This document shows positions 20,687 through 36,420 of a DNA stretch of 64,000 nucleotides, piece by piece. The translations under genes and the position numbers were made by a program. The stretch covers positions 310,001-374,000 of the forward strand of contig NZ_JUGU01000001.1 in NCBI RefSeq assembly GCF_000799465.1, in the 5' to 3' direction. Each line of letters begins with the position of its first letter. The first letter of the stretch is position 1. This DNA comes from Psychroserpens sp. Hel_I_66. Lineage in GTDB: Bacteria > Bacteroidota > Bacteroidia > Flavobacteriales > Flavobacteriaceae. Under the pieces are notes generated by a model that made no database searches, was not told the DNA's origin, and was given only the letters and a program-made list of their open reading frames with translations.

Positions 20687-21394
20687 TTAGTCAATAGGAA
20701 AATACTCCACAACCTCAAAATCAGCTTTATTAAGCTCTAAATAGAAATAGTGCATGGTGTCCTTTTTATTAAATTCACCATTATTATCGGTGTCTTCTAA
20801 AGTTTTGAAATAAAGCCTTTTATTTATAACCATTTCTTTCCATTGCACTAAATCTTGTAATTGTGGTGAAATTCTTTTAAAAATTGAGCCATCAATATCA
20901 CTAACGTAAATCGACTTTAAATCCTTTTGATCCAATTTTCCGTTGGCATTTGTATCTTTATCAATAACATCATAAACGTAAAAGCCATTTTTCGTATCTT
21001 CAAAAATCATAAAAAGAAAAGACATTTGATGTATCTTAATAACCTCATTTGTAAGTGGTTTTAAAACATCTGAATTTACTTTTTGAAACTTCACATTAGA
21101 TAAATCTCCTGCAATTTTATATCCATTAAAATTGGCAACACGATAATCTCCAGAATAATAATCCGCTCCACTAAAATATTCTGCTCGTGATTTCTGAATT
21201 TTATAATTACCAATTGGGTGAATGATATAGTTTGTGCTGTCGATATAGATTGGTAAATCTGCAATATCAACAGTATTATCTTCTTTTTTTACTGCGGAAG
21301 GTGTCATCTTAGTTTCAATGACTTTTCTGTTATCTCGTTTTTTACAAGCGTTCAACGAAAGAATAGCAATGAGTATTAAAATATAATGTTTCAT
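20687..21394 (-). CDS. Lipoprotein with two EF-hand/dockerin-type calcium loops
   Basis: 235 residues. Lipobox LNAC (Cys17), then a lysine-rich linker. Two 12-residue loops fit the calcium-binding consensus DxNxNGxxDxxD: DTNANGKLDQKD (147-158) and DTDNNGEFNKKD (201-212). The remainder is beta-rich with no enzyme motif I recognise. It is the last gene of the eight-gene minus-strand operon, 4 bp after the DUF1361 gene. A role as a calcium-dependent envelope protein is a guess from the loops. Confidence 0.7.
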   Translation of the reverse strand: MKHYILILIAILSLNACKKRDNRKVIETKMTPSAVKKEDNTVDIADLPIYIDSTNYIIHPIGNYKIQKSRAEYFSGADYYSGDYRVANFNGYKIAGDLSNVKFQKVNSDVLKPLTNEVIKIHQMSFLFMIFEDTKNGFYVYDVIDKDTNANGKLDQKDLKSIYVSDIDGSIFKRISPQLQDLVQWKEMVINKRLYFKTLEDTDNNGEFNKKDTMHYFYLELNKADFEVVEYFPID

Positions 21395-21398
21395 GGTG

Positions 21399-22055
21399 TT
21401 AATGTTTAGAATTAGAAAAAGCCTTCAGCATCCAATAAGAAATCGACAAAAAGCTCCCAAAAGTTAATGTAAAGACGCAAGCTTCAATATTTGGACTGAA
21501 AATAATCTCAAAAATATCTGCGAACAGTGCAAACGGATTATTAATAATCTCCCAAGAATTATAGCGCAAGAATCTTCCGAGGAAAATACCAAAAGCAGTC
21601 AGTCCAAAAATAGAAAGTAGCGTTGGAGTTATCAGTTTTGTGTTGATGTGTTGTTTTAAAAGTTTTTCCATATCTGATAATGAAAGGAAAAACAAAATAA
21701 GTCCGTTAAACGCAAATGAGGTAATGACAAGCACATCGAGCCACATCAAATGTTTCTCGCCATTGTGAAGGTGCAATAGATCTGTGACAATATAGGGTGC
21801 ATTTGGGAGGAACAATAGCCAAATCAAGAAGAAAAAAAGAAATGAAATCTTATGTGTTTTTACAGAACTCGTTAATCCTGTTGTGATTGCAAATGGGATG
21901 ATGGCCAGAAATAAATTCCATACTAAAAATAGCAGATAAAACGACTGGTGAAATTTCATTCTAATCATTAAGAGTACAATACTCAATGCCATTGAAACGG
22001 TTAGTAATGACAGGATTTTAAATCTATTAAAAAGGAGTGTCTTTATAGTTTCCAT
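21399..22055 (-). CDS. DUF1361 membrane protein
   Basis: 218 residues with six to seven predicted membrane helices. The family motif WLLFLPNAPYIVTDLLHL is present (about residues 79-96). DUF1361 proteins are uncharacterised inner-membrane proteins. It overlaps the preceding DUF2809 gene by 13 bp, so translation is coupled within the operon. Confidence 0.88.
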   Translation of the reverse strand: METIKTLLFNRFKILSLLTVSMALSIVLLMIRMKFHQSFYLLFLVWNLFLAIIPFAITTGLTSSVKTHKISFLFFFLIWLLFLPNAPYIVTDLLHLHNGEKHLMWLDVLVITSFAFNGLILFFLSLSDMEKLLKQHINTKLITPTLLSIFGLTAFGIFLGRFLRYNSWEIINNPFALFADIFEIIFSPNIEACVFTLTFGSFLSISYWMLKAFSNSKH

Positions 22056-22426
22056 AAGGTTTTGGTTTTAATATCTATTAAAAAAATGGTAAGGGTGCCC
22101 AAGCTATACGCTACAAGGTCTGAAACACTAAAAGTGCTTCCTGAAATAATGACTGCGAGATTATTATGTCTTAGGTTTAAATGGTCTAAAAGATTAAATA
22201 ATTGTAAAAATTCAATGCCAAAAGAGAATAGTAATACTGCTAATGCAACATATATGGGTTTCGCTTTTACAAAACTTCTAATGGCACAATACAACAACAT
22301 AGTGGCTAAATAATCACCAAAAGTGTGTCTTATAAATCCTTCGGTCAAAAATGCTGCGATGCAGATTTCCGTAGAAAAAAGTAATAGACTTGAGGCAAAA
22401 AAGGCTTTGTTGAATGCTATGGTCAT
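22043..22426 (-). CDS. DUF2809 membrane protein
   Basis: 127 residues, four predicted membrane helices. Family features: an N-terminal helix, then FIRHTFGDYLATMLLYCAIR, IEFLQLFNLLDHLNLRHN and a C-terminal GSTFSVSDLVAYSLGTL stretch. These are typical of DUF2809, a VanZ-like small membrane family. Function unknown. It overlaps its upstream SanA-like gene by 4 bp (ATGA type) and its downstream DUF1361 gene by 13 bp. Confidence 0.85.
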   Translation of the reverse strand: MTIAFNKAFFASSLLLFSTEICIAAFLTEGFIRHTFGDYLATMLLYCAIRSFVKAKPIYVALAVLLFSFGIEFLQLFNLLDHLNLRHNNLAVIISGSTFSVSDLVAYSLGTLTIFLIDIKTKTLWKL

Positions 22427-23070
22427 TTTATTTCTATTGGTTTTCCTAAAAATTTTGGCTTTACCTTAAAGAGCACGTCCAAAGATGCTTTGGCTCTCGC
22501 GAGATATTCTCTAAGCTGAACTTTTAAACCATAACGTCCAGGTACATCTTTTGCATTGAAAGCCACAGCTTTTACACCGTTGTATTTTGCCAAATAAATG
22601 GCTCGCTCGTTATGGAACTCTTGTGAGATAATCGTAATTGAGGTCTGCCCAAATATTTCTTTAGCTCTAATTACGGAATCAAGTGTTCTAAAACCTGCAT
22701 AATCCAAAAAGATCTTTTCCTCCGGAATGCCCTCTGCAATAAGGTCTTTTTTGAAAGTGGTAGGTTCATCGTAGCTTTTACTTCCGTTATCGCCACTTAT
22801 CAAAACAAACTCAATTTTATTGGCTTTATAAAGATCTACAGTTGCTTTAATACGATAACGGTAATAGAGGTTAACGTTTCCGTTAGTTAAAAACTTTGAA
22901 GTGCCTAAAAGCAATCCCACTTTGTTTTTAGGAATTTCTGTCACCGCATCATAGATGTTTTCTTTGGCCTGTTCTCTAATCCAATAATTGATTAATAAAA
23001 GTCCACAGACTAAAAGGATTCCCAACAATAGTAAAATGCGGAGTTTCTTGATGTATTTTTTTAATATCAT
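22423..23070 (-). CDS. SanA/YdcF-family (ElyC-like) envelope protein
   Basis: 215 residues: one N-terminal membrane anchor (about 9-30) and a periplasmic domain of the ElyC/SanA/YdcF family. Visible family pieces: VGLLLGTSKFLTNGNVNLYYRYRI, VLISGDNGSKSYDEP, LDYAGFRTLDSVIRAKEIFG, and ISQEFHNERAIYLAKYNG. SanA affects the outer-membrane permeability barrier in E. coli (vancomycin exclusion). It sits in the eight-gene operon with 4-bp overlaps on both sides, which ties the operon to the envelope. Confidence 0.9.
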   Translation of the reverse strand: MILKKYIKKLRILLLLGILLVCGLLLINYWIREQAKENIYDAVTEIPKNKVGLLLGTSKFLTNGNVNLYYRYRIKATVDLYKANKIEFVLISGDNGSKSYDEPTTFKKDLIAEGIPEEKIFLDYAGFRTLDSVIRAKEIFGQTSITIISQEFHNERAIYLAKYNGVKAVAFNAKDVPGRYGLKVQLREYLARAKASLDVLFKVKPKFLGKPIEIK

Positions 23071-23351
23071 ACTGTTTCTATTACAATTAGAAAATAAATG
23101 TAAGCAATTGGTGCATTTAAGGAGATAATCCCAATAGATTTTAAAATTGTTGACAGGTCATTTTTAAAAATTAATGATCCCAAAAAAACTAAAACGATGA
23201 CCAGGTTGATTGCTATTGAGAATAATACATAATAGAGTCCCATTATTGCAATTACAAACTCATTTCGAAAACAAAATTGTAGGATTAACAATACCGTACC
23301 TATTGAGAAAAAAATGAAAAATATGATTTTTGAAAATTTTAATTGATTCAT
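23067..23351 (-). CDS. Small three-helix membrane protein, unknown
   Basis: 94 residues, almost wholly hydrophobic with three predicted membrane helices (about 8-28, 33-62 and 70-93). I do not recognise a family. It overlaps the COQ4-like gene upstream and the SanA-like gene downstream by 4 bp each, so it is a true, translationally coupled member of the operon. Confidence 0.65.
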   Translation of the reverse strand: MNQLKFSKIIFFIFFSIGTVLLILQFCFRNEFVIAIMGLYYVLFSIAINLVIVLVFLGSLIFKNDLSTILKSIGIISLNAPIAYIYFLIVIETV

Positions 23352-23845
23352 TGTGTTTGCGGATTGAGATCTCTTATTGTTTTTTTGCTGAAAATCGCCT
23401 GCCTAAAATCTTCCATATTTATGATCAACAACTGCTTATAATCAAAATGGTGAAAGGGATTGGCGTTTTTGCCAATTTTGAAGGATCTATAATAATAACA
23501 GTAATAATCTGGCAGAATAATGATACCCAAAATCATCGCTCCATAGAGGTAAATGCTGCGTTTGCCATTACCAAAGCAAAGACATTGTAGAGCAATTTCA
23601 TCCTCTACTTTTGTGCCATAACCAGTAAGTGTGTGATAGGCATCGTGACGCTCGACCTTGGCGATGAGTTCAAAATTATTTAGCTCTAAAAATTCACCTA
23701 AATGCTTGCCAAAACTAGATTGTGGATAGGAGAGTAGCTCTGCTCTAGAAATTCCCCAGGCCTCATGGTTTTTGAAAAGTTTAGTATATACATTTTGAGA
23801 ATGTTCAAACAACCATTCTATCAGTTTTTTTCTTAATACGCTCAT
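23348..23845 (-). CDS. COQ4-like protein with intact HDxxH-x11-E metal motif
   Basis: 165 residues, soluble with a hydrophobic C-terminal half. Residues 67-83 read HDAYH followed by exactly 11 residues and Glu83, the zinc-binding motif of COQ4. Around it, FELIAKVERHDAYHTLTGYGT and EDEIALQCLCFGNGKRS also fit the family. In eukaryotes COQ4 is needed for ubiquinone synthesis; Flavobacteria normally make menaquinone, so another role is likely here. It overlaps both neighbours by 4 bp in the eight-gene operon. Confidence 0.72.
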   Translation of the reverse strand: MSVLRKKLIEWLFEHSQNVYTKLFKNHEAWGISRAELLSYPQSSFGKHLGEFLELNNFELIAKVERHDAYHTLTGYGTKVEDEIALQCLCFGNGKRSIYLYGAMILGIIILPDYYCYYYRSFKIGKNANPFHHFDYKQLLIINMEDFRQAIFSKKTIRDLNPQTQ

Positions 23846-24216
23846 TTGGTTTTTTCTTTAGCGAACCAAATCCAGGATTGGCTCGTGGTTATAAAAACAG
23901 ATGTAAAAAACGCAATGGCCATATTGTCAAAGTCTGATGTTGAAATTCCGAAGACACAAATACCAAAAACTACGATAGCATAATATGGAAAACAGGTTTT
24001 AAATACGTTTTGGTTATTAAAACCAGTGTTTTTTGCAGACCAGAAAAACGGACAAATAGTACCAATAATCACGATGAGAACACAAAGAAAAACCGGAATA
24101 TAAGATAGCATCACGTAAGGCAACACCTCGCTCTCATAATCTTTTGAGCCAATGATGACCCAAAATATCACGAAAGCCAAAACGCTCGATTTTGCTAGAT
24201 TACTTGGGAGATTCAT
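23842..24216 (-). CDS. Four-helix membrane protein, unknown
   Basis: About 124 residues, four predicted membrane helices, no recognised family. The longer reading from 24243 would overlap the DUF4173-like gene by 26 bp; the ATG at 24216, one base after that gene's stop, gives a tidier junction and is preferred. It overlaps the COQ4-like gene by 4 bp. Confidence 0.65.
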   Translation of the reverse strand: MNLPSNLAKSSVLAFVIFWVIIGSKDYESEVLPYVMLSYIPVFLCVLIVIIGTICPFFWSAKNTGFNNQNVFKTCFPYYAIVVFGICVFGISTSDFDNMAIAFFTSVFITTSQSWIWFAKEKTK

Positions 24217-24217
24217 A

Positions 24218-25615
24218 TTAGTAGGTATTATGGTTTTTATCAAATGTTAGTTTTTCAAAAGTGAGTTCCTGCCAGTTTTGGGATTCTAAATTTTTGATAT
24301 GTCTAGAATATTTAGTTATGATTCTATTTCTGTTATGCGTAGAGATTTCGACGTCATCTTTTTTATCATGAAGTAAAATAGCATTACGATCTGAAAGATC
24401 GATAAGGTATCCAATGTCATAAGAGCTGGCTTGGCTTAGGTTGTAATTGGTGATGATATTGTCCCAATTTACAGTGCTAAGAATGACTAAAGTAGCAAAT
24501 GCGATTTGCGTATTTTTTCTAAAAAGAAACACTAAGTTTTTAATGTTTAGCACTTTTAAAAGTGTTGTAATCAAACCAACAAGTGTTAAGAATATATAGA
24601 TATGAACACCAATTCTTTTATAGGTCAAGCCAAATGAAGTGATGTAATTCTGGTTTTTAATAGCAATTAAAACAATAAGCATGATGTTAAGGGCAATCCA
24701 AATAAAAGTAAGATGTTTAAGAATTCTATTTTCAGAATAAAAATTGAGATTTCCACGAAAGAAGTAGAGAATAATAGCGATTGCAATGAGAATTGAAGCG
24801 ATTAGGGTATTGATCCCGCTGTGAACAAGATCTGATAATTCTGAAGCTTTTGAAGTGTCCATCGTCATCAAAGACATGATATCTGTCACGATAAAAAACA
24901 CTAAAAGCACATTGAGCAAACCAAGTAATGTTGTGCCCAACTGTTTCTCTTTTTTTAACTTATCTTCGGAAAACGTCTCTGTTTTGAACAACTCGTTGCC
25001 AGTTTTTAAATCTAGAGTTGTTGCAGGTTCTACAACCATAGGCTTTGAAATATTACTGAAAAGGAAATAACCTAAAACGGTAAACAGAATCCATTGAAGG
25101 TTGATGAACTCAAAACTTATTTTTGAAACTAAATCATTAAATACCGGATTTCCATTTTTATAAAGCAAAACGAAAATAGTTATAAATACAAGCGGGATGG
25201 CGATGAGTTTTGTGAGATGGAGAGCGTCAATATTTGTTTTTTTATTGACGTTTTCTGTGTCATTATCAGTTTCAAAATTTCGTTGCAGCGTTCCAGCAAT
25301 TGAGGTGTAAATCCCATTGAGCCATTTGACATAAACAGATGTTTTATGTTCTGAAATAGAGCCAATCAATGAAAAGAACAAAGCGCAATTTGTAATTATC
25401 GATAATCCAGAATTATGTACAAATACCAAAACACCGCTTATGATATATGCAAAAGCCAGGAGAAGAGTCCGTTTTTTTAGAACTTTTTGACGAACACTTA
25501 TAATTAAAAAGGCAATAGTGATACTAGTAAATAGGAGCAGGTTCAATCCTACGTTTTGCTGAAAAAAAATAATACTAAATAATAGCGACGCGATGATGGT
25601 AGTGATTTGTTTCAT
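24218..25615 (-). CDS. DUF4173/DUF4153-like polytopic membrane protein
   Basis: 465 residues with about eleven predicted membrane helices, then a soluble C-terminal tail. Just after the last helix it has NYNLSQASSYDIGYLIDLSD, the NxxSx...D-x-x-YL-x-x-LS pattern typical of DUF4173/DUF4153 proteins. Function unknown; such genes often lie beside small winged-helix regulators in Flavobacteria, as here. It is the first gene of the eight-gene operon, and a 19-bp palindromic operator lies 17 bp before its ATG (25633-25651). Confidence 0.8.
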   Translation of the reverse strand: MKQITTIIASLLFSIIFFQQNVGLNLLLFTSITIAFLIISVRQKVLKKRTLLLAFAYIISGVLVFVHNSGLSIITNCALFFSLIGSISEHKTSVYVKWLNGIYTSIAGTLQRNFETDNDTENVNKKTNIDALHLTKLIAIPLVFITIFVLLYKNGNPVFNDLVSKISFEFINLQWILFTVLGYFLFSNISKPMVVEPATTLDLKTGNELFKTETFSEDKLKKEKQLGTTLLGLLNVLLVFFIVTDIMSLMTMDTSKASELSDLVHSGINTLIASILIAIAIILYFFRGNLNFYSENRILKHLTFIWIALNIMLIVLIAIKNQNYITSFGLTYKRIGVHIYIFLTLVGLITTLLKVLNIKNLVFLFRKNTQIAFATLVILSTVNWDNIITNYNLSQASSYDIGYLIDLSDRNAILLHDKKDDVEISTHNRNRIITKYSRHIKNLESQNWQELTFEKLTFDKNHNTY

Positions 25616-25632
25616 GGTTTATTTGTTTAAAG

Positions 25633-25651
25633 TACTTTGTATTTCAAAGTA
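25633..25651. promoter_or_regulatory. Palindromic operator, site A (eight-gene operon)
   Basis: TACTTTGTATTTCAAAGTA: perfect 7-bp arms TACTTTG/CAAAGTA around 5 bp. The same element recurs at 26451-26469 and 27721-27739. Here it is 17 bp from the ATG of the DUF4173-like gene. The upstream arm, read on the minus strand as TTACTTTG, is one base from the TAnnTTTG -7 box, so binding would probably block the promoter. The likely binder is the HTH_34 protein coded at 26498-26791. Confidence 0.8.
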
Positions 25652-25670
25652 AATGGTTAAAAAAATAGTT

Positions 25671-26435
25671 TTATTGAGTTACTGTGTTCATTGATTTTAT
25701 TTGAGCCTGGTATTCATTAGGTAAAACCATAGCTTTTAAAAAGCTGTCAAAGTAGATAGTCCTACTTAATTTATAAATTGAAATGAGAGGCTTTATTAAA
25801 GTGGTTTGACGTTTATTCAAAAGTTGATTTATAGATTTTGGTGTAAGCATAATCTGGGTTTCTATAAGTAAATTATAGCGCACAATACCTAAATGTTTTC
25901 GATATTGTTTGTAAAGATCTTTTGTGAAATCTCCGTTGTAATAATTAGTGTTTAGGTGCTTATTTCTAACCTTTTTAAATTGCTCATAGGTTTGCGGTAG
26001 ATCTTTTATGTTCATGCGTTTACCAACTTCAAGAAAGACTTCAAAAACTTCGTTACACTCCTTTATTTTAAGCGGACGTTCTAAAATTTCATAAGCTCTA
26101 ATGGAGTAATCTATGAGCATGAATAACACATCTTGATAAGCCCAATTAGGAATATCCTCTCCACGTTTTTCCTCTACAGCACCATGAATCTGGTTTATGC
26201 GATCAATTGCTTGATGTGCTTTTTCTTTTTCAGAAAATACAATATCTCTCGCATAAGCAACAGTAGAGAATAAGCGTCCTAAAGGATCATTTGGGATTTT
26301 TCCTGTAAAATACAACCAATCTACAGCCACGCTAAGCGCAAACTCTGCAGATGCTCCAGCAAATACCAAAAGAATGGTGTCGCTCTTTCCCCAGATCTCT
26401 CTTACAATAGAATTTTTTTCTACAAAATAGTCCAT
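25671..26435 (-). CDS. MpaB-like oxygenase (DUF2236 family)
   Basis: About 254 residues, soluble and helical. Matches the MpaB/latex-clearing-protein-like DUF2236 group: NSIVREIWGKSDTILLVFAGASAEFALSVA, then DPLGRLFSTVAYARDIVF and EKAHQAIDRINQIHGAV, where heme-binding and catalytic residues lie in known members. The substrate is unknown. An upstream in-frame ATG at 26465 lies inside the palindromic operator (26451-26469), so the second ATG at 26435 is chosen. Single-gene unit of the predicted regulon. Confidence 0.75.
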   Translation of the reverse strand: MDYFVEKNSIVREIWGKSDTILLVFAGASAEFALSVAVDWLYFTGKIPNDPLGRLFSTVAYARDIVFSEKEKAHQAIDRINQIHGAVEEKRGEDIPNWAYQDVLFMLIDYSIRAYEILERPLKIKECNEVFEVFLEVGKRMNIKDLPQTYEQFKKVRNKHLNTNYYNGDFTKDLYKQYRKHLGIVRYNLLIETQIMLTPKSINQLLNKRQTTLIKPLISIYKLSRTIYFDSFLKAMVLPNEYQAQIKSMNTVTQ

Positions 26436-26450
26436 GATATTATTAAGTTT

Positions 26451-26469
26451 TACTTTGAATTTCAAAGTA
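26451..26469. promoter_or_regulatory. Palindromic operator, site B (MpaB-like gene)
   Basis: TACTTTGAATTTCAAAGTA, same arms as sites A and C; differs from A at one central base. It is 15 bp before the chosen ATG (26435) of the MpaB-like gene and just after the stop-side end of the regulator gene. Confidence 0.8.
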
Positions 26470-26497
26470 GATTTCTAAATTTTTTTAATATTCGTTT

Positions 26498-26791
26498 TTA
26501 TTGTTTGTTGATTAATTTTTCTAGAGCTTCAATATGTTTTTTAAATTCTAATCGTCCTAGATTAGTGGTAGAGTAACGTGTGTTTGGCTTTCTGCCTATA
26601 AACTGTTTTTCTACTTTTATGTATTCTGCATTTTCCAAAGCTTTTGTATGACTTGCTAAATTTCCATCTGTGGCACCCAAGAGTTCTTTCAGCATATTAA
26701 AATCTGCATATTCATTGACCATTAAAATGGACATGATGCCCAGTCTAATACGGTGGTCAAATGCTTTGTTGATGTTATTAATTATGCTCAA
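26498..26791 (-). CDS. Winged-helix transcriptional regulator (HTH_34 / PF13601 type)
   Basis: 97 residues: only a winged helix-turn-helix. It fits HTH_34 closely: FDHRIRLGIMSILMVNEYADFNMLKELLGATDGNLASHTKALENAEYI (split here by reading positions 12-58) and wing KQFIGRKPNTRYSTTNLGRLEF. These small ArsR/PadR-like proteins act as dimers on palindromes and are mostly repressors. It is the third gene of the operon starting at 27713, which itself carries palindrome site C, so autoregulation is likely. It is the best candidate to bind all three TACTTTGnATTnCAAAGTA sites nearby. Confidence 0.88.
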   Translation of the reverse strand: MSIINNINKAFDHRIRLGIMSILMVNEYADFNMLKELLGATDGNLASHTKALENAEYIKVEKQFIGRKPNTRYSTTNLGRLEFKKHIEALEKLINKQ

Positions 26792-26803
26792 ATTTCAGTT
26801 AAT

Positions 26804-27100
26804 TTAAAAACCATTAGAGAAAAAGTTAGCTTGTAATTCTGCCCAGATCGCAATAATTAAAAAAATAGCGAAAATGACAAATAGAAATCTATGGAACCCT
26901 TTCTTGAAAAAAACAATTGATATTTCAATCGATACGATAATACCAATCAAAACTAAGGCTATTTTGAGAAAATCATTTAAATTCCAAATCAAATGATTTG
27001 ATACTTGAATGCTTATAAAAAAAATAGTCAATAAGGCTACAACCCAAAATGAATACGTTTTTAATCTTTTCTTCGGAAACATAATTTTATTTTGAGTCAT
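26804..27100 (-). CDS. Small membrane protein, unknown (regulator operon, gene 2)
   Basis: About 98 residues with three predicted membrane helices (SFWVVALLTIFFISIQVSN; IALVLIGIIVSIEISIVF; FLFVIFAIFLIIAIWAEL) and no recognised family. The ATG at 27100 (overlapping the end of the upstream gene) or 27082 (just after it) is more likely than the longer 27145 start. The regulator follows after 12 bp. It may sense or answer to the same signal as the regulator, but nothing in the sequence shows this directly. Confidence 0.6.
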   Translation of the reverse strand: MTQNKIMFPKKRLKTYSFWVVALLTIFFISIQVSNHLIWNLNDFLKIALVLIGIIVSIEISIVFFKKGFHRFLFVIFAIFLIIAIWAELQANFFSNGF

Positions 27101-27713
27101 ACTTAAAATGCATAATTGTTCCGTAGATAATATGACAAAAACCAAATCCTAAAGCCCAAAATAACAATCCGTAGCCTAAAAAATAAGTGGATAAAAGCCC
27201 AATTATAATCATAGTGATTCCTAAGTAGCGTATATATCCCAAAGTGTATTTACTGGCGTTGACACAAGCTAAACCATAAAAAATAAGCGTTAAGGGAGCT
27301 ACAAAGGCGTATACATTTTTTTCAATTAAAAGCATTATAAAAAAACCACCAGTCACTAACGGAATCAAAAAATTGATGATTAGTCGCTTTGATGTTGCAT
27401 CCCAAACATTTTCATTCTGTTTTTTGGCTTTGGCATAACTCATTACTACACCGGTTATAATCGCTAATCCAACGACAGTCATGGCAACTATAAATATATT
27501 GACTAGACTATCTTCAGTTAAGATTATGGTTCTGTAACCATCTGCTGTGAATAGATTATTTTCATAAATAATCGTATAACCAAAATAGGCGCCAATAAGT
27601 GCATAGATTCCTGCAAGGATTCCTGAGATTCCACTAATAGATAAAAAACGTGATGATCTATTCATCATGTTTTTAATTTCACTTATGTCATTTAGATAAT
27701 TATTTGATTTCAT
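27087..27713 (-). CDS. Six-helix membrane protein, unknown (regulator operon, gene 1)
   Basis: 208 residues, about six predicted membrane helices after a short polar N-terminus (DISEIKNMMNRSSRFLSISGISGILAGIYALIG read over residues 9-41). Such proteins are common in Flavobacteria next to HTH_34 regulators but have no known function. Operator site C begins 8 bp before its ATG. First gene of the membrane-membrane-regulator operon. Confidence 0.7.
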   Translation of the reverse strand: MKSNNYLNDISEIKNMMNRSSRFLSISGISGILAGIYALIGAYFGYTIIYENNLFTADGYRTIILTEDSLVNIFIVAMTVVGLAIITGVVMSYAKAKKQNENVWDATSKRLIINFLIPLVTGGFFIMLLIEKNVYAFVAPLTLIFYGLACVNASKYTLGYIRYLGITMIIIGLLSTYFLGYGLLFWALGFGFCHIIYGTIMHFKYDSK

Positions 27714-27720
27714 CTTAAAG

Positions 27721-27739
27721 TACTTTGAATTACAAAGTA
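27721..27739. promoter_or_regulatory. Palindromic operator, site C (regulator operon)
   Basis: TACTTTGAATTACAAAGTA, arms identical to sites A and B. In A and C an extra TTAAAG precedes the left arm, making a second overlapping palindrome AAAGTACTTT; site B lacks it. It lies 8-26 bp before the first gene of the operon that encodes the HTH_34 regulator, so it implies autoregulation. Confidence 0.8.
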
Positions 27740-27775: not shown

Positions 27776-28753
27776 TTAATTTTGATTAATAATCATGAAT
27801 TCTAAAACTGTATAAAAGTGGTTGTGAATTGCTAAAACAGTTTTACGATTTGATTTTACAGGGATTTTAGTAACGAATTTCCCGTCTTTCTCTTTAAAAA
27901 ATAATCTTTTTGAAGAATTACTACCTAAGAATGAATAATAATAATTATCATCTATTTTATTAATTGAATCAAATTTAATTTCTATAAAATCATTATTTTC
28001 TAATTTTATTAGACCAAGCTGATCTTGACTTAATTTTAATCCTGATTTATGATATGCTTCATAAAAAAGTGGTTTAAAAAAATAATTAGCTTTAGAAATA
28101 GGTTTTTCTAATAGTTGCCATTTTTCATCTTTTGGCAAGTGTGTCAAAATCAATTTTTCGGGCTTAATCAAAAAAAAGATATCTGTAAAATCATATTCTC
28201 TATCGGACCTTTCTTCTTTTCCAGCTGACCATGTCGCATCAATTAATTTCCAAGTATCATTGATTTTAACTGCATTCCACGCATGGTTAGTTCTATTTGT
28301 TATTCTTCCTATTTCATATGCTTTTGATTTAGCGAATCCAGTAATAACTTCTGTTTCAATATCTAATTCAATAAGTGTGAATTTTAATAGCTGAGAATAG
28401 CCTTCACAAACAGCCAATTTTCTTTTTAGCGCACGCTCAGCATACTTTTTCTGCATATTTAAAAAACGAATTTCATAATCATCTTTACTTTTTGATTTAA
28501 TCTTTTTATATCCGTTAGTATTGTTTTTCAAAGATTTATAATCATATGTGATATTGTTGGAAATCCAAAAATATACTGCTCTAATTTTATCCAAATCTGT
28601 ATTAAAATCCTCGTCAACCCTATTGGAAAATTGTTTAATTGATTTAAATTTGGAAGGATATTTTGAGACAGTTTTATCAACCAAAGCGAAATTCTGAGTA
28701 TATGCTATTTCAAGAGATAAGAATAAGCAAAGAATAAATGTAAATATTTTCAT
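27776..28753 (-). CDS. Transglutaminase-like secreted protein
   Basis: 325 residues. Signal peptide ends AYTQ (~20). A transglutaminase-core domain spans about residues 50-175 with a complete Cys-His-Asp triad: Cys in LAVCEGYSQLLKF, His in TNHAWNAVKIND, Asp in LIDATWSAG. The C-terminal 150 residues are beta-rich. Proteins of this type act as cysteine peptidases or amide-bond enzymes in the periplasm; the target is unknown. It ends the minus-strand run and is divergent from the DUF1801 gene with only 30 bp between. Confidence 0.85.
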   Translation of the reverse strand: MKIFTFILCLFLSLEIAYTQNFALVDKTVSKYPSKFKSIKQFSNRVDEDFNTDLDKIRAVYFWISNNITYDYKSLKNNTNGYKKIKSKSKDDYEIRFLNMQKKYAERALKRKLAVCEGYSQLLKFTLIELDIETEVITGFAKSKAYEIGRITNRTNHAWNAVKINDTWKLIDATWSAGKEERSDREYDFTDIFFLIKPEKLILTHLPKDEKWQLLEKPISKANYFFKPLFYEAYHKSGLKLSQDQLGLIKLENNDFIEIKFDSINKIDDNYYYSFLGSNSSKRLFFKEKDGKFVTKIPVKSNRKTVLAIHNHFYTVLEFMIINQN

Positions 28754-36303: not shown

Positions 36304-36420
36304 TAATGTATTTAATTTAAAAACTTTAAAGCTACTTCTAAAATCAAAGTAAAAAAATATATACCTGAAAATAAAATATATTGGGATGCTTTCGTAAAGC
36401 AATCTAAGAACTCTACGTTT

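Follow-up and report, generated by a model that had tools for sequence, protein, structure and literature searches.

A 64,000-nucleotide stretch of the 3.84-Mb genome of Psychroserpens sp. Hel_I_66, hereafter the window, carries three adjacent units on its minus strand, each preceded by the same palindromic operator, TACTTTG-N5-CAAAGTA. The units comprise an operon encoding two membrane proteins (TM208 and TM98) and a winged-helix regulator of the HTH_34 family, an MpaB-like oxygenase gene, and an eight-gene envelope/membrane operon headed by a DUF4153 gene (Table 1). A sequence-only reading had proposed this gene content and placed the palindromes 7 to 17 bp before the start codons. Pfam matches agree with the former, and the sites are indeed found 17, 15, and 7 bp from the minus-strand ATGs at 25615, 26435, and 27713, respectively. 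The regulator matches HTH_34 (PF13601) at 103.2 bits (cut-off 27), the MpaB-like protein matches PF09995 (MPAB_Lcp_cat) at 44.6 bits (cut-off 23), and the Coq4-like protein matches PF05019 at 29.7 bits (cut-off 22.9). Three genes of the eight-gene unit gave no family above cut-off in a Pfam scan, and TM208 and TM98, both encoded ahead of the regulator, had no Pfam match (at an E-value of 0.001 for TM208). Sequence comparison makes it probable that HTH_34 is an autoregulated repressor, tuned by TM208, governing a CreD-type envelope-integrity regulon that operates without CreBC.

Table 1. Operators and genes of the HTH_34 module in the window
Feature	Coordinates	Strand	Basis
Self operator, TACTTTG-N5-CAAAGTA + CTTT, ahead of the membrane gene of the regulator operon	27717..27739	-	Motif search
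TM208, 208-amino-acid membrane protein; proposed sensor/partner of the regulator	27087..27713	-	Open reading frame and predicted helices
TM98, small membrane protein, optional member	26804..27100	-	Open reading frame
HTH_34 winged-helix regulator, 97 amino acids, TTG start	26498..26791	-	Pfam and fold
Operator without CTTT, ahead of the MpaB-like gene	26451..26469	-	Motif search
MpaB-like oxygenase (PF09995), optional member (9 of 136 loci)	25671..26435	-	Pfam
Operator + CTTT ahead of the DUF4153 operon	25629..25651	-	Motif search
DUF4153 membrane protein, gene 1 of the target operon; role taken by CreD in other loci	24218..25615	-	Pfam
TM123, membrane protein, no family match	23842..24216	-	Open reading frame and Pfam scan
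Coq4-like protein (PF05019)	23348..23845	-	Pfam
TM94, small membrane protein, no family match	23067..23351	-	Open reading frame and Pfam scan
SanA-like DUF218 protein	22423..23070	-	Family match
DUF2809 (VanZ-like) membrane protein	22043..22426	-	Pfam
DUF1361 membrane protein	21399..22055	-	Pfam
Probable lipoprotein (N-terminus judged by eye), last gene of the eight-gene unit	20687..21394	-	Open reading frame

Within the window, a search allowing up to three mismatches returned seven matches, namely the three sites on both strands and a single three-mismatch match at 36333, against a mean of 1.2 and a maximum of 6 in 100 shuffled windows. The exact palindrome occurs at only three places in the genome, all of them the sites described above. 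Two genomic palindromes with one mismatch were considered as further targets and rejected, one lying in a DnaJ-like frame and the other about 500 bp from the next gene in the same direction. At two mismatches or fewer, the genome holds 31 palindrome places compared to 35 for the reversed control, so that only near-perfect sites are informative in the organism's own genome. In the direction of transcription, CTTT follows the palindrome at the self site and at the DUF4153 operon, but not at the MpaB site. Its presence after two of the three palindromes suggests that the element is longer and asymmetric, an extension that the sequence-only reading had overlooked while identifying the palindrome correctly.

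The position of the operator was then compared across 136 related loci with flanks of up to 10 kb, in which genes were counted per locus. This collection consists of 80 named loci (the best 80 of 513 confirmed, mostly Flavobacteriaceae, with HTH_34 proteins 88 to 96% identical), 36 from the family or order, and 20 from other classes of the phylum, which, going by the named loci, we take to be Bacteroidota; the latter were chosen blind to the operator from 38 such matches. Four loci with HTH_34 identities of 37 to 40% and no site by the gene were left out. The 80 named loci (1.54 Mb) contain 134 exact sites: 76 precede the membrane gene, 58 lie behind HTH_34, and none occurs outside these two positions. 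In a search limited to the promoter region of all 136 loci, the self site had 0, 1, 2, or 3 mismatches in 87, 31, 16, and 2 cases, respectively, the last two being L172 and L175. The operator thus heads the regulator operon with at most two mismatches in 134 of 136 loci, a level never reached by the reversed control. A second operator follows the HTH_34 gene in 127 loci. Of 134 self sites whose distance to the ATG was measured, 127 lie at 23 to 28 bp (two of the remainder being picks misplaced inside the membrane gene); for second sites, the distance is 33 to 39 bp in 89 of 124. CTTT comes next at 129 of 134 self sites and at 119 of 127 second sites. A shorter or perfect -7 promoter box overlaps the operator at 126 of 135 self sites, a total that includes the two misplaced picks, compared to 29 of 127 second sites. 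At window positions 25652-25670, and likewise at second sites of related loci, a run of T ends about 7 bases ahead of the operator; this run marks CreD- and DUF4153-type target promoters and stands where a TTG element would be.

Whether the palindrome stays beside the HTH_34 gene had been suggested as a check, and the two were found to be present together, absent together, and adjacent. HTH_34 matches occur in 84 of 149 family genomes, 75 of them strong; the nine genomes with a weak or partial match (including G121, 84% identical over residues 2-38) were classed as lacking the regulator. The exact palindrome is present in 67 genomes, versus 9 for the reversed control. Both palindrome and strong HTH_34 occur in 65 genomes, the palindrome alone in 2, the regulator alone in 10, and neither in 72. 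All ten regulator-only genomes carry a self site with one or two mismatches, which in one of them, where TM208 is missing, stands directly before HTH_34. Among the 75 palindrome places with coordinates (of 102 places), 68 lie within 2 kb of an HTH_34 gene. Three exact palindromes without CTTT were seen at a distance from HTH_34 (G034, G036:C11, and G016). The longer 22-bp pattern, ACTTTG-N5-CAAAGT-N-CTTT, was tallied likewise: across 148 family genomes, both are present in 73, the pattern alone in 2, the regulator alone in 1, and neither in 72. It therefore accompanies 73 of 74 strong HTH_34 orthologues and appears in 2 of 74 genomes without one, both times within a coding frame, while its reversed control was found in none of the 148. 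The same association extends to the phylum, and the palindrome does not behave as a sequence common genome-wide and unlinked to the regulator.

Operators detached from the module were also informative. All eight module-distant places of the longer pattern in the family genomes were examined, two of which fall within coding frames. A detached Coq4-like gene (L042/L211) is preceded by the operator and a one-mismatch tandem copy 78 bp apart, and a detached MpaB-like gene has an operator 45 bp away in reverse orientation; these sites support control of the Coq4 and MpaB targets. Two others precede small TM98-like genes, of which the first was recognized by tblastn and the second by eye. A further site stands before a DoxX-like gene, and another lies 103 bp ahead of an exosortase-like gene (both labels by eye). 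MpaB operators lack a downstream CTTT, both in the window (26451-26469) and in L206, where the CTTT points away from the gene.

The genes following the second site fall into a few types. The first genes after 127 second sites yielded 124 sequences, in clusters of 52 (CreD type), 32 (DUF4153), 17 (Coq4), 8 (small membrane protein), 5 (MpaB), 3, and 2, plus five singles. The CreD label of the largest cluster rests on members L080 and L103, scanned with Pfam, and the similar L184, all of which are CreD. CreD is present in 59 of the 136 loci and DUF4153 in 56; none has both and 21 have neither. Companion genes, counted in the 80 family loci, are largely shared between CreD- and DUF4153-type loci (DUF2809 in 37 of 39 and 34 of 36, DUF1361 in 32 of 39 and 32 of 36, respectively), with the exception of the SanA-like gene, found in 32 of 36 DUF4153-type loci and in none of the 39 CreD-type loci. 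By parsimony, CreD and DUF4153 changed places 23 times on a tree of two short proteins, compared to a shuffled minimum of 31 and mean of 38.6; the count of 23 may be too high, as support for the tree was not tested. Counted genome-wide, CreD occurs in 46 of 148 family genomes and lies within 4 kb of HTH_34 in 43. The other three lack a strong HTH_34, and the two loci examined among them have no site with two or fewer mismatches. CreD (PF06123) had no match in the genome of the window, and DUF4153 was ruled out as a CreD homologue for want of BLASTP similarity. At G105:C66:3192-4489, CreD is split over neighboring matches, possibly a broken gene or a sequencing error. A transglutaminase-like protein (27776-28753) adjoins the module in the window; its relatives are adjacent in only some related loci, and it probably lies outside the module. 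Loss of CreD damages the envelope in Stenotrophomonas (PMC4689548). That CreD and DUF4153 alternate under one operator suggests a response concerned with envelope integrity. Of the two purposes guessed earlier, an envelope function is favored over a lipid/quinone change, since CreD is the most frequent partner gene in the loci examined.

The regulator itself, modeled as a single chain, has no cysteine in its 97 residues, and its match to HTH_metalloreg (NCBIfam, 22 bits) falls below the cut-off of 55. Start codons in the 80 related loci are ATG (52), TTG (18), or GTG (10). One weak PADLOC match to Csa3 (19.9 bits) was read as reflecting the shared winged helix. In some members of the phylum, HTH_34 is fused behind a PAS-like domain in proteins of about 325 amino acids (L272-L276; five seen, three scanned) that show no membrane helices by simple count, indicating that this winged helix can act as the output of a sensor. 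For TM208, the predicted fold has six long helices behind an N-terminal one, with a predicted local distance difference test score of 87 overall and 63-70 over residues 1-30. Its most conserved block spans residues 21-40 (mean 0.91, versus 0.49 at residues 61-80, in 116 sequences). A fold search gave a best E-value of 0.5 and was unusable. The TM208 profile matches 50 of 148 phylum genomes, always with an HTH_34 match adjacent and within 100 bp in 45.

From these sequence comparisons, we infer the binding of HTH_34 to the sites, the sign of control, the part played by TM208, and the signal as follows. An HTH_34 dimer would bind ACTTTG-N5-CAAAGT, with half-sites about 11 bp apart, and repress its own operon together with one to three envelope operons. 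At the self promoter, the upstream half-site doubles as the -7 box, such that a bound dimer would block RNA polymerase. TM208, which shares its message with HTH_34, may sense the state of the envelope and report it to HTH_34, relieving repression; alternatively, it could hold HTH_34 at the membrane. The targets would be proteins of the inner membrane that maintain envelope integrity, namely CreD in many relatives and, here, DUF4153 with the SanA-like, Coq4-like, and other proteins. The idea of a single module under the HTH_34 regulator thereby gains comparative support, although the scope first given to it was too narrow for what appears to be an old and widespread system.

Other explanations were weighed against this proposal. 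That the palindromes are chance or repeat sequences has virtually nothing left to recommend it: the own genome is no richer than the reversed control at up to two mismatches, but conservation locked to position across the phylum refutes this view. Another protein might bind the palindrome, with HTH_34 a mere member of the regulon, and since regulator and site are adjacent, co-occurrence alone cannot name the binder. We nevertheless regard this as quite improbable, because HTH_34 is the only DNA-binding protein recognized in the conserved core, because sites are kept where target genes differ, and because L193, which lacks TM208, has a two-mismatch site directly before HTH_34. Less remote, though still unlikely, is that HTH_34 represses only itself and activates its targets from weak promoters that depend on it. 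The TTG element occurs in none of the 127 second sites (shuffled mean, 9.4), T occupies -10 and -9 in all 58 exact second sites, and the -7 box is seldom kept there, all of which would suit activation. However, most second sites would sit at the transcript start, which is unusual for an activator, and their element is nearly identical to that of the self site.

The role of TM208 is more evenly contested. It could well be a plain envelope protein of the regulon, HTH_34 answering a soluble signal instead, although we consider this the less probable view. The PAS-like fusions and the commonness of HTH_34 genes without TM208 speak for it, and the unbroken adjacency of HTH_34 to TM208 and the strong conservation of residues 21-40 speak against it. 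Several observations also weigh against the repressor model as a whole. HTH_34 matches occur in 90 of the 148 phylum genomes, 40 of which lack a TM208 match, so that the presence of the domain does not imply that of TM208. The absence of TTG from second sites means that control at target promoters may differ, and the self promoter of the window itself lacks TTG at that spacing. Moreover, CTTT and the T tract are left unexplained, and many loci are closely related, so that locus counts are not independent.

Parts of this arrangement recall known systems. BlaI/MecI are small winged-helix repressors made with the membrane proteins BlaR1/MecR1, and one palindromic operator stands before the repressor and its target. 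The module described here shares this logic, but in a Pfam scan its regulator matches HTH_34 only and TM208 gives no peptidase match. The winged-helix fold is likewise shared with MarR-, HxlR-, and ArsR-type regulators; here, the protein has no added ligand domain, no cysteine, and no HTH_metalloreg match above cut-off. PH1061 (1ub9), a solved HTH_34-like protein, is archaeal, and we know of no operator, role, or such module for it. The CreBC system of E. coli, Pseudomonas, Aeromonas, and Stenotrophomonas also controls CreD, an envelope-integrity protein (PMC4689548). It is, however, a two-component system with the tag TTCAC-N6-TTCAC, in contrast to the winged-helix protein and different operator found here, and this tag is absent from all 59 CreD loci and from the window. 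In the literature searched (HTH_34, DUF4153, CreD in Bacteroidota, PH1061, and the half-sites; judged by titles and some abstract beginnings), no description of an HTH_34/TM208/operator system was found, nor, by titles and abstract beginnings, anything on control of CreD in Bacteroidetes or Flavobacterium. Tentatively, these loci may represent an undescribed, phylum-old system encoded in one message, in which a winged-helix repressor answers directly to a six-helix membrane protein that has no recognizable enzyme domain. The amount of CreD-type envelope-integrity proteins would be set in this way, and DUF4153 (with the SanA-like and Coq4-like proteins) would be a functional replacement for CreD within the system.

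Searching with the 22-bp element can bring further members to light, and the module provides a context for several families of unknown function, including DUF4153, DUF1361, DUF2809, the bacterial Coq4-like and MpaB-like proteins, and TM208. For DUF4153, its alternation with CreD behind one operator offers a direct, testable hypothesis on function. Taken together, these results name a candidate regulator, operator, partner, and set of targets for an envelope response that apparently has not been studied, in a phylum plentiful in both sea and soil.
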